From: Pseudomonas sp. B28(2017)
GTDB taxonomy: Bacteria; Pseudomonadota; Gammaproteobacteria; Pseudomonadales; Pseudomonadaceae
Reading direction: 5' to 3'
Length of the DNA stretch: 64,000 nt
Assembly (NCBI RefSeq): GCF_002113025.1
Contig: NZ_NEJH01000012.1
Location: 62,001-126,000, forward strand
Position 1 is the stretch's first letter. Every line of letters begins with the position of its first letter. Below the pieces are notes generated by a model. That model saw nothing but the letters and a program-made list of their open reading frames with translations. It had not been told where the DNA came from and did no database searches. The translations under genes were made by a program, and so were the position numbers. This document shows, piece by piece, positions 37,303 through 40,232 of this stretch.

Positions 37303-37776
37303 ATGGATCATCGTACAAAAGGTTTCACGCTGATCGAGTTACTGGTCGCGATCGCGATCCTTCTGATTCTGCTGACTCTGGCTGTCCCGGCGTTTACCCG
37401 CTCGATGCAAACGACGAGGGCTGATACTGAAATCGCTGATCTGCGACGAGCCCTGAATTTTGCCCGGCTCGAAGCCATCGATCGGGGCAATGCCACACGG
37501 GTGCGTCCGACGGCCGGTGGGGATGTCTGGAGTGGGGAGCTGGCGGTCTACGATGGTACTGGCGCTTTGGCCAATGTATTGCGGGTTGTTCCGGCGATGA
37601 GCGACGGCGCAACTCTGACGCTAACCTCGGGCGTGACTGCCATCGATTTCAACGGTATGGGCGGATTGTCATCACCGTCCTCAGAGGTGGTGATCAGCTA
37701 TGGGCGGGGTGCTCAAGGCAGGACGCTGAAAGTGTGTTTGAACGGACGAATTCTATTGGGTGGAAGTTGCGGATGA
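37303..37776 (+). CDS. fimU: minor pilin FimU
   Basis: The 157-residue protein has the type III leader MDHRTKG and FTLIELLVAIAILLILLTL, followed by a GspH-like globular domain with a C-terminal cysteine pair. Minor pilins FimU, PilV, PilW, PilX and PilE prime pilus assembly at the tip. The ATG at 37303 has AAGGC-type spacing upstream. Its stop overlaps the pilV start (ATGA). It is the first gene of the minor pilin operon. Confidence 0.85.
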   Translation: MDHRTKGFTLIELLVAIAILLILLTLAVPAFTRSMQTTRADTEIADLRRALNFARLEAIDRGNATRVRPTAGGDVWSGELAVYDGTGALANVLRVVPAMSDGATLTLTSGVTAIDFNGMGGLSSPSSEVVISYGRGAQGRTLKVCLNGRILLGGSCG

Positions 37777-38222
37777 GGATAGGAAGCCAAGGCACGCAGA
37801 AGGGCATGACGCTGGTTGAAGTCCTGGTGGCATTAGTCATTCTGGGGGTGGGGTTGCTAGGGGGCGCGGCGTTTCAGCTCAATGCGCTGAAGTACACGGA
37901 CAGTGCGCGCATGACCAGTCAGGCCAGTTTTATCGCCTACGACATGATGGACCGCATTCGCGCCAACGCCGCTGCGGACTACACCATCGCGCCGCCGGCT
38001 ACGGGTAATCCGGGTGTTGCCCGGGATCAGGACCTGTTCGACTTCAATTCCAACATTGTCAGCTCGCTCGGAGCCACCGCGACGGGCAGTGTCACCGTCA
38101 ATCAGCAGGTGTACACCATCACGATTACCTGGGACGACTCACGGGCTGCGAATGCTGCCGACTCGCGGCGCAGCTTCGTCCTGACCAGCCGCACGTCCAT
38201 TGATCCGGTGGTGATCCCGTGA
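37773..38222 (+). CDS. pilV: minor pilin PilV
   Basis: The 149-residue protein carries GMTLVEVLVALVILGVGLLG, with the glutamate at mature position 5 and the PilV-type LGGAAFQLNALK continuation. A short basic leader of about 12 residues precedes it. It belongs to the minor pilin tip complex. The start overlaps fimU and its stop overlaps the GTG start of pilW, so the operon is tightly coupled. Confidence 0.88.
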   Translation: MRIGSQGTQKGMTLVEVLVALVILGVGLLGGAAFQLNALKYTDSARMTSQASFIAYDMMDRIRANAAADYTIAPPATGNPGVARDQDLFDFNSNIVSSLGATATGSVTVNQQVYTITITWDDSRAANAADSRRSFVLTSRTSIDPVVIP

Positions 38223-38926
38223 GTCGTCGCAGCAGAGGCTTTGGCCTGGTCGAGTTGCTGATCGCCCTGGTATTGAGCCTGATCGTGGTGCTGGGCGTGG
38301 TGCAGGTTTTCATCGCGGCCAAAAACACTTATCTCAGTCAGAATGCAGCCGCGAACATGCAGGAGGACGCACGTTTCGTGTTGAGCAAAATGATTCAGGA
38401 AATCCGCATGGTCGGGATGTTCGGTTGCCTGGAAACGATCACTGATTCAAGTAAGAAAAGTGATTTCCATAGCAATCGTATAACGCCGATCCGTTGGGAC
38501 AGTGGCAGTCGCAGTTTGACGCTGGTTACGGCGGATGTTGGCGGCAATGGCGGCAAGCCGGACTGGACCGTGCTTTCCGATTGTCGAAACAATTCGACGG
38601 CCTACAGCGACAGTGCGACTCCTGTGGCAGGGCAACTGGCCTTTCCAATACGGCAACTGACCTACAGCTTCAGCAACAACCAACTGCTTATGAGGGGCGG
38701 GGCCGCAGCAATGCAGGTATTGGTGGACAACGTAAGCGCTTTTGACGTGAGCTTCGGCCTGGCCAGCACTGCCACTGATCTGGCTGCCTCCCGCTACAGC
38801 AGCAACCCACCGGATCCTGCGCTGATTCGTAGCGTTCGCCTGAGCCTGACGCTCACCGATCGGAACCACCGGGTGAGCAATCAAACCTTCAACGCAGTGG
38901 CCGCTCTGCGCAACCGCTTGCCATGA
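38219..38926 (+). CDS. pilW: minor pilin PilW
   Basis: The 235-residue protein starts with GTG overlapping the pilV stop. The leader MSRRSRG precedes FGLVELLIALVLSLIVVLG with Glu5 conserved. The following NTYLSQNAAANMQEDARFVL is typical of PilW. It forms part of the initiating minor-pilin complex in the inner membrane and at the pilus tip. Confidence 0.88.
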   Translation: MSRRSRGFGLVELLIALVLSLIVVLGVVQVFIAAKNTYLSQNAAANMQEDARFVLSKMIQEIRMVGMFGCLETITDSSKKSDFHSNRITPIRWDSGSRSLTLVTADVGGNGGKPDWTVLSDCRNNSTAYSDSATPVAGQLAFPIRQLTYSFSNNQLLMRGGAAAMQVLVDNVSAFDVSFGLASTATDLAASRYSSNPPDPALIRSVRLSLTLTDRNHRVSNQTFNAVAALRNRLP

Positions 38927-38936
38927 GGGAATGTCA

Positions 38937-39416
38937 ATGAACCGTTCTCCCATGACGTATTACACCCAGCGCGGCATGGCGCTGCTGGTCAGTCTGGTGT
39001 TTTTGCTCTTGTTGACACTGATTGGTCTTTCATCGATTCAAAGCGCCACCCTGCAGGAAAAAATGGCCGGTAGCGTCGCCTTGCGCAATCAGTCGTTTCA
39101 GAGTGCCGAAGCCGCATTGCGGGTGGGCGAGAGTGCAGTGCAACGGGACAGTTATGTGCTACCCGTTTGTAGCGGCATCGTTCAATGTGCACCGCCGTCC
39201 GAGTCCTCGACAATTACCGCTGCCGGTTTCAGCGCCTCGTCCGGAGTGACCTGGATAGCATCGGGCAACGGCTTTTATGGCGTGCAAAACATCGGTGTCA
39301 GCCAAGATGCGGTGAATGTGCCAATCAATACCCAGGCGACGTTGTATCGGGTAACGGCAGTAGGCATTGCGGGTCATTCGCGCAGTGTGGTGGAGAGCAT
39401 CTATGCGAAGTACTGA
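38937..39416 (+). CDS. pilX: minor pilin PilX
   Basis: The 159-residue protein has the PilX pattern RGMALLVSLVFLLLLTLIGL followed by SIQSATLQEKMAGSVALRNQ; it lacks the usual Glu5 as PilX proteins do. GAGGGA lies six bases before the ATG at 38937, which is preferred over the ATG two codons upstream. The last 14 bases overlap the next gene. In P. aeruginosa PilX works together with PilY1, which is not encoded here. Confidence 0.85.
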   Translation: MNRSPMTYYTQRGMALLVSLVFLLLLTLIGLSSIQSATLQEKMAGSVALRNQSFQSAEAALRVGESAVQRDSYVLPVCSGIVQCAPPSESSTITAAGFSASSGVTWIASGNGFYGVQNIGVSQDAVNVPINTQATLYRVTAVGIAGHSRSVVESIYAKY

Positions 39417-39816
39417 GAGATACATCCGGCGGTGGTCACAATTGTTCGGCGTATTGGTCGCGCTGAACCTGTCGGTGTCGGCGCACGCTGCCACTCCACC
39501 GGATTCGCCAGCACTGAACCGGCCAACCTGCCTGGCGAGTGGTAACTGGTACGGGTTCTACCACAGCAATCAGGGATTGAAAGCCGTCTGCCTGAGGCTG
39601 CCCGATGCAATCAGCGTTAAGATGCTCGACAGCAACGACGATGGCGTGGTCGACAGCATCGACACGCTGTCCGATGGCGTGATCTTTGTTGGTGAGCATT
39701 CGACCCAGGACATCAGCGACAATGGCGGGGCCGTGAACGATGCCACTGGCGACGATACGCCGGGGATGGAAAAATCCGGCGATAGCCGTCGCATCATGTG
39801 GCGACAAATACAGTAA
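39403..39816 (+). CDS. small secreted protein in the pilY1 position, with a PilY1-like calcium loop
   Basis: The 137-residue product has a signal peptide (about residues 1-29, ending SAHAA) and so is exported. Two cysteines (PTCLAS and AVCLRL) may pair. The loop DSNDDGVVD at about residues 77-85 fits the Dx[DN]xDGxxD calcium pattern, and D, N, D and D are spaced as in the known PilY1 site. The C-terminus RRIMWRQIQ resembles the ends of PilY1 proteins as I remember them. In P. aeruginosa this slot holds pilY1 (about 1160 residues) and pilY2. It may be a shrunken PilY1 or a PilY2-like protein. Its start overlaps pilX by 14 bases, so it is a stable operon member. Confidence 0.6.
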   Translation: MRSTERYIRRWSQLFGVLVALNLSVSAHAATPPDSPALNRPTCLASGNWYGFYHSNQGLKAVCLRLPDAISVKMLDSNDDGVVDSIDTLSDGVIFVGEHSTQDISDNGGAVNDATGDDTPGMEKSGDSRRIMWRQIQ

Positions 39817-39830
39817 GTGAGAGTTGAGGC

Positions 39831-40232
39831 ATGCGTAGTACCAACCGCGGTTTTACCCTGATCGAAATCATGATCGTGATTGCGATCATCGGGATGGTCA
39901 TGACCATTGCTGCCCCGAGTTTAACCGAGTACCTGAACAAGGGCCGTCGCGCAGAAGTGGCGGGGCTGCTCTCGGAGCAGGCGCAGATCCTGGAGCGCTT
40001 CTACTCGCAGAAAAATGTCTACACCGATGCGACGGGCCTCAGTGCCGGCAATGATTACTACAGCATCACTCCGGCCCTGACCGACCAGGCCTTTCTGCTG
40101 ACGGCGGTGCGCAAAGCTGGCACGAGCATGGCCACTGACAAGTGCGGTGATCTGACCATCACCAACACTGGTGTCCTCGGAATGGTCAACGCAAAATCCG
40201 GCCTGACCAGCAAAGATTGCTGGGGGCGCTGA
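39831..40232 (+). CDS. pilE: minor pilin PilE
   Basis: The 133-residue pilin has the leader MRSTNRG, then FTLIEIMIVIAIIGMVMTI with Glu5, and the PilE-like continuation YLNKGRRAEVAGLLSEQAQ. Two cysteines (DKCGDL and KDCWGR) should form the C-terminal disulphide loop. It is the last gene of the minor pilin operon, 14 bases after the small secreted protein. Confidence 0.88.
   Translation: MRSTNRGFTLIEIMIVIAIIGMVMTIAAPSLTEYLNKGRRAEVAGLLSEQAQILERFYSQKNVYTDATGLSAGNDYYSITPALTDQAFLLTAVRKAGTSMATDKCGDLTITNTGVLGMVNAKSGLTSKDCWGR

Follow-up and report, generated by a model that had tools for sequence, protein, structure and literature searches.

What has become of PilY1 in a minor pilin operon of Pseudomonas sp. 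B28(2017), in which a gene of 137 codons stands where pilY1 is expected? Adhesion, mechanosensing, calcium-dependent control and pilus priming have all been ascribed to PilY1, and such roles are hard to separate in one large protein. We analysed a stretch of 64,000 nucleotides (the window; contig NZ_NEJH01000012.1, positions 62,001 to 126,000) and compared the short gene, here called mini-pilY1, with its counterparts across the genus. We propose that mini-PilY1 is a minimal donor, in trans, of a beta-strand to the tip pilin PilX, and that lineages without PilY1 supply the strand in cis. This reading, to which we give a probability of roughly 70%, is drawn from the distribution of the PilY1 C-terminal tail together with published models of the pilus tip.

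The short gene and its descent

The genes around mini-pilY1 run ispH - fimT (minus strand) - fimU - pilV - pilW - pilX - mini-pilY1 - pilE - thiO, the neighbours being named from Pfam and NCBIfam matches, position and reading (Table 1). The slot between pilX and pilE is the one in which the PilY1 family is expected. The frame opens with the ATG at 39403, overlapping pilX (end at 39416) by 14 bases, and after 137 codons closes with a TAA ending at 39816, 14 bases before pilE (39831). At E 1 the 137-residue protein matched no Pfam or NCBIfam profile, and its one PDB sequence match (an allergen, E 0.5) is due to chance. The block structure of the protein was seen solely by comparison with the DNA of relatives.

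Table 1. Positions of mini-pilY1, its parts and its operon neighbours in the window
Feature	Position	Strand	Basis or remark
fimU	37303..37776	+	PF12019 and position
pilV	37773..38222	+	TIGR02523
pilW	38219..38926	+	PilW model below cut-off (E 0.022), N-methyl motif, position
pilX, proposed acceptor	38937..39416	+	PF14341; ends SVVESIYAKY, without a tail of its own
mini-pilY1, 137 residues	39403..39816	+	ORF; aligns block by block with PilY1 of relatives
Block 1, residues 1-39, signal peptide (by eye) and start of mature PilY1	39403..39519	+	PilY1 alignment
Block 2, residues 40-67, with Cys43 and Cys63 (GNWYGFY...CLRLP)	39520..39603	+	PilY1 about 104-131, inside the vWA region
Block 3, residues 68-137, PilY1 C-terminal tail (about 949-1027)	39604..39813	+	61% over 958-1027
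EF-hand-like loop DSNDDGVVDSID, 12 residues	39628..39663	+	Not the known PilY1 calcium site
C-terminal RRIMWRQIQ, proposed PilX donor strand	39787..39813	+	22/22 distinct short genes
pilE, next operon gene	39831..40232	+	Pfam match

Against 57 related genomes, mini-PilY1 matched open reading frames of about 1050 residues in three blocks (residues 1-40, 35-71 and 71-137). An alignment of 12 short forms, two 650-residue forms and 23 full-length PilY1s, in the PilY1 numbering of the full-length relative L073, shows that the short form keeps PilY1 residues 1-39, about 104-131 and about 949-1027; an in-frame deletion has taken out about 890 others. The propeller has been lost, as has all of the vWA region, MIDAS (DDSGSM) included, except a 28-residue segment. 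The N-terminus, which by eye resembles a Sec signal peptide with a cleavage site likewise placed by eye, aligns with the N-terminus of PilY1; in this first block TPPDSPALN corresponds to FTPSDSPLL of PilY1, and identity to one full-length PilY1 (G029) is 53.8%. The second block is 55% identical over PilY1 102-134, and its C43, G47, W49, Y50, G51, F52, Y53 and C63 are invariant in 19 short sequences. In the 12 short forms the tail and cysteine segments are collinear with, and 51-64% identical to, PilY1s of about 1030 residues, and mini-PilY1 ends in the R-x-x-W tail seen in PilY1s of the genus. By its sequence, then, the 137-residue gene almost certainly descends from PilY1 by internal deletion. 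Since its pieces keep the order that they have in a large protein found widely across the genus, we take PilY1 to have been reduced rather than built up. Relative to the PilY1/PilC tip adhesins (PF05567; P. aeruginosa PilY1, 3HX6), mini-PilY1 thus has the same operon slot, N-terminus and tail by direct descent, but lacks the propeller, the vWA domain with its MIDAS and a calcium site of the 851-859 type, and has 137 residues as against about 1030.

Structure prediction leaves the lone protein mostly unstructured (pLDDT 48.9) apart from a hairpin in block 2 (strands 49-55 and 58-65; block pLDDT 63-72). A strand donor on its own could look like this, although such low confidence makes for weak evidence. 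The AlphaFold model of full-length PilY1 has a mean pLDDT of 39.4 and is most confident at about 70-160, the two-cysteine segment included.

A second pilY1 was sought and not found. The PF05567 beta-propeller has no match in the window's own genome and none over the cut-off in any of the 12 genomes with the short form, where one sub-threshold match appeared (G296, E 0.118); both controls passed. With a full-length PilY1 as query at E 0.001, the 12 genomes matched at the short gene alone, and both controls returned the whole protein. The first-pass annotation had described a settled member of the operon, with a PilY1-like end and no von Willebrand-type domain. This description stands: the 14-base overlap with pilX recurs in 12/12 sampled genomes and 18/18 named loci (sets that share genomes), the gene is under purifying selection, and block 3 is the PilY1 tail. 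The propeller, which the annotation did not count among the losses, has gone along with the vWA domain. Nor did the prospect that the protein might be PilY2, or belong to an unrelated family, find backing in the profile searches or in one comparison (E 3.0) with a 111-residue protein encoded in the PilY2 position of locus L312, which from its position and from recall we take to be PilY2. Like mini-PilY1, PilY2 of the P. aeruginosa operon is a small protein encoded near pilE; it differs in having, as judged from the L312 protein, no sequence similarity.

The median dN/dS of mini-pilY1 is 0.29 (28 non-independent pairs from 8 sequences), as compared with 0.13 for pilX, 0.10 for pilE, 0.22 for pilW, 0.20 for pilV, 0.17 for fimU and 0.02 for ispH, so the gene is constrained, though less than its neighbours. 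That its value exceeds those of pilX and pilE we count against the strand-donor proposal. The faster evolution, the large deletions and the interrupted pilY1 of two relatives (L087 and L088) could also be taken to mean that the gene is a decaying pilY1 whose frame has survived by chance. We regard this as scarcely credible, given that 19 aligned sequences, some of them as little as 50% identical, all retain the frame, the 14-base overlap, the cysteines, the loop and the tail, that dN/dS is 0.29, and that elsewhere the tail occurs in frame on PilX.

Reduced forms of PilY1 in one operon slot

Among 398 genomes of the genus, PF05567 was detected at E 0.01 in 231 (227 over the cut-off). The short ORF of the 137-residue type, in the same slot and with the same overlap, recurs in 12 of the 398, the window's own included, and all 12 lie outside the 231. 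Its carriers comprise P. jessenii, P. laurylsulfatiphila, P. laurylsulfativorans, P. moorei, P. vancouverensis and P. fluorescens C8, along with Pseudomonas strains without a species name; the named short forms are 18 loci (L100-L117) among 80 kept of 173 relatives. Three sizes of PilY1 occupy this one slot: about 1030 residues, 646-650 residues and 114-172 residues. The intermediate form, without the vWA region, was found in G295, G285, L120, L143, L145 and L147 (G295 and L143 look like one genome), and vWA-less proteins of 649-650 residues occur in P. umsongensis and P. serbica. The smallest, with junctions other than that of the 137-residue type, are those of G082, G094, G225, G092, G375, G314, G346, G398 and L118. 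Every reduced form that we read keeps the ending R-x-x-W-R.

Two side observations concern this slot. Propeller and tail are both retained in the vWA-less proteins of 646-650 residues at L079, L085, L120, L143, L145 and L147. Near pilX in L087 (G034), L088 (G410) and L086 (G204), the pilY1 frame is interrupted or lacks a start; the coding sequence for the tail persists, and PilX has no tail.

On a tree of ispH and thiO from 95 loci, the 137-residue type requires four changes (three of them forced by starred branches), the other short forms three (three forced), the fusions of the tail to PilX described below three (two forced) and the vWA-less form one. The operon tree, which like the first is unrooted, requires three changes for the 137-residue type, all three forced. 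Several changes on the trees, together with one common junction, suggest that the short form either spread by gene exchange or arose by repeated deletion.

The other candidate for what these forms have preserved is the loop. The first-pass annotation had matched DSNDDGVVD (residues 76-84, from 39628) to the pattern of the PilY1 calcium site and suggested that the small protein keeps the calcium switch; neither point finds support in the comparison with other PilY1s. The calcium site of P. aeruginosa PilY1 (3HX6), which we take to be DNNSDGVAD at propeller residues 851-859, aligns to V-NSQNVVQ of L073, whereas the loop of mini-PilY1 aligns to DLARQGVVD of 3HX6, near its C-terminus; identity with the P. 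aeruginosa site is rejected. In the full-length PilY1 of L073 itself, the P. aeruginosa-type propeller site appears to have been lost. Nineteen short PilY1s all have D76, N78, D80, G81, D84 and D87, and the short form of L118 has a similar loop as well as the tail, so that a minimal tip protein retaining a calcium switch, with the loop and not the tail as what is kept, can be envisaged. We hold this to be very improbable: the loop differs from the known site in the 3HX6 alignment, and it is lost or degraded in the eight other short PilY1s and in the PilX fusions that we read, all of which keep the RxxWR tail. The loop of mini-PilY1 may nonetheless bind calcium.

The tail on PilX

Outside the 231 genomes with PF05567 and the 12 with the short form lie 155 others, in which PilX_N was detected in 50/80 and 52/75. 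From these 102 loci we took 100 (G378 and G387 were left out) and then dropped G206, whose PilY1 is merely divergent. That protein (L205), of 1561 residues, is encoded beside PilX, ends ...PRTYWTDEKAE and was missed by PF05567 at E 0.01, so PF05567 alone is no proof that PilY1 is absent. Eight of the remaining 99 loci, those of the eight G-numbered genomes listed above for the smallest forms, have a separate PilY1 remnant of 114-172 residues and an untailed PilX. The other 91 yielded no PilY1, and in all of them it is PilX that ends R-[IVA]-x-W-R-[QE] (91/91). The tail most often lies 14 residues past the usual end of the PilX core (63 of 89 measured), and a pilE-like prepilin follows the tailed PilX within about 40 bases (35 + 44 + 12 loci). 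Three of the 91 fusions (G246, G318 and G272) have a longer stretch between PilX end and tail that contains GKML or GKIL, a PilY1 motif, which points to PilY1 as the source of the tail. PilX_N had no match in 53 genomes, of which we examined 20; 20/20 encode, downstream of ispH, a divergent PilX that ends or nearly ends in R-x-x-W-R-Q (in G278 eleven further residues come after it). For these 111 genomes the absence of PilY1 is judged from PF05567, with reading of the slot for 91, and a full-length PilY1 query had no match in any of the 20 of them searched. In view of the PilY1 that PF05567 missed in G206, we count this basis against the strand-donor proposal.

A looser pattern, R-x-x-W-[RQNK] near the C-terminus, served as a control. 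It was found on PilX in 35/35 fusion loci of the first batch, in 0/4 loci with other short forms and in 0/40 PilY1-bearing loci (12 short, two of 650 residues, 23 full-length and three interrupted or oddly starting); on IspH, PilV, PilW, PilE and ThiO it was found in 0/35, 0/4 and 0/40 each; and the PilY1 product had it wherever that product was detected at the cut-off used (39/39). The named PilY1-bearing loci number 80 and overlap the set of 40, so that the counts are not additive; in them PilX is untailed (80/80) and PilY1 ends in RRIMWRQIQ (80/80). The R-x-x-W ending was common to 18/18 further PilY1 loci, divergent ones included (18 usable of 20 regions). In the loci that we read, the tail is thus on PilY1 or on PilX, never on both and never on neither, a pattern suggesting that, of all PilY1, it is this short stretch that is indispensable.

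Is it the protein that is preserved, or the DNA? In the short genes the tail shows almost no codon variation, even at CGA and ATA, and in the window its codons lie 18-44 bases upstream of pilE, as one would expect if the 3´ end were kept as DNA for the translation of pilE. With so little variation the codon test is uninformative for the short genes, where the DNA itself may be under constraint near pilE; we count the near-fixed codons, too, against the strand-donor proposal. In the fusions, in contrast, the first tail arginine is encoded by CGA in 44, CGG in 26, CGC in 11, CGT in 6 and AGG in 4, while R, W and R are invariant in 91/91 and in frame with PilX, so the constraint is at the level of the protein. 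As R-x-x-W is also common to divergent PilY1s, retention of the tail as DNA seems extremely unlikely.

The machinery around the tail can be followed through pilO, which was present in 70/70 genomes tested, of all classes; at the level of its genes the pilus machine has therefore not obviously been lost. Where full or 137-type short PilY1 is present, the PilO model gave E-values of about 1e-47 to 1e-53; they were weaker in fusion genomes (1e-11 to 1e-47), and 1e-9 to 1e-19 where Pfam misses PilX. In 35 fusion loci (L206-L241), tblastn gave no convincing forward-strand fimU, and minus-strand fimT or short pilE-internal matches appeared instead; the minor pilin set may be reduced in these loci.

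A proposed donor strand for PilX

Published models offer a role for the tail. AlphaFold models of the Myxococcus xanthus tip have the last PilY1 residues as a beta-strand added to the PilX sheet (PMC11046646), and the same C-terminal strand addition is described for four predicted complexes, including that of Neisseria gonorrhoeae (PMC13190605). It is also reported that PilX3 was pulled down with PilY1.3 (PMC7541494) and that PilX3 is needed to stabilise PilY1.3 (PMC13190605, PMC7541494). If PilX needs such a strand, the strand-addition model predicts that it will come from a whole PilY1, from a cut-down PilY1 or from PilX itself, and this is the pattern in the loci that we read. In our proposal, the product of an internal deletion in pilY1 would have been kept because its last nine or ten residues were still needed. 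Mini-PilY1 would be exported by Sec, and its R-x-x-W-R-x-[IL] tail would add as an edge strand to the sheet of PilX, completing the tip complex and thereby allowing pilus assembly. With vWA domain and propeller gone, the resulting pilus would be without the large PilY1 adhesin and mechanosensor. In species without PilY1, PilX would carry the strand itself, a donor-strand self-complementation in cis. It is on balance probable that much of the genus can do without the PilY1 regions responsible for adhesion and mechanosensing, and that the one irreplaceable function of PilY1 is a nine-residue strand completing PilX, repeatedly kept on a tiny exported carrier or fused to PilX.

Other published observations sit less easily with this proposal. 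The strands reported for M. xanthus, LQNVYELP and SKVLIYAP, are without R-x-x-W, so that the strand may not be homologous across phyla. Deletion of the vWA domain of M. xanthus PilY1.3 is reported to have abolished motility (PMC7541494), so a vWA-less PilY1 might not support function everywhere. The tail could also be needed for a partner other than PilX, such as the alignment complex (PilO) or the secretin, or for export or stability of the tip protein. A C-terminal tag on M. xanthus PilY1.3 was located near the lower periplasmic ring and PilO was pulled down with PilY1.3 (PMC7541494), and all 70 genomes tested have pilO. We nevertheless find another partner unlikely, since the published models pair the PilY1 C-terminus with PilX, and since in the loci tested the tail occurs on PilX and not on PilV, PilW or PilE.

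Under the strand-donor proposal, the genus provides a natural deletion series that runs down to the short tail, with the tail on PilX where PilY1 is gone. The series marks the PilX-PilY1 strand as what is probably the essential link, and lends evolutionary support to a strand pairing otherwise known from structure prediction; for the PilX-PilY1 contact itself there are pull-down data from M. xanthus. Mini-PilY1 and the tailed PilX are ready-made minimal constructs for asking what licenses type IV pilus assembly without an adhesin or sensor. Strand addition by PilY1 has already been published, and our literature search found no report of a miniature PilY1 or of a PilX-PilY1-tail fusion.

Chaperone-usher pilins with donor-strand self-complementation have been made in laboratories, and like the tailed PilX they provide the strand in cis to an incomplete fold; they differ in that their fold and pathway are unrelated, and the tailed PilX is natural. 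The nearest precedent is beta-strand complementation of PilX (Treuner-Lange 2024, PMC11046646; PMC13190605), the same mechanism as proposed here, in which the donor is the full-length PilY1 of predicted complexes, whereas here it would be a remnant in trans or PilX in cis. A preprint (Ellison 2026) likewise concerns, by its title, complementation of PilX by the PilY1 C-terminus. M. xanthus PilY1.1 and PilY1.2 have DUF4114 in place of the vWA domain (PMC13190605) and so come closest to the form of 646-650 residues, but their propeller is still present and their N-terminal domain is a different one.
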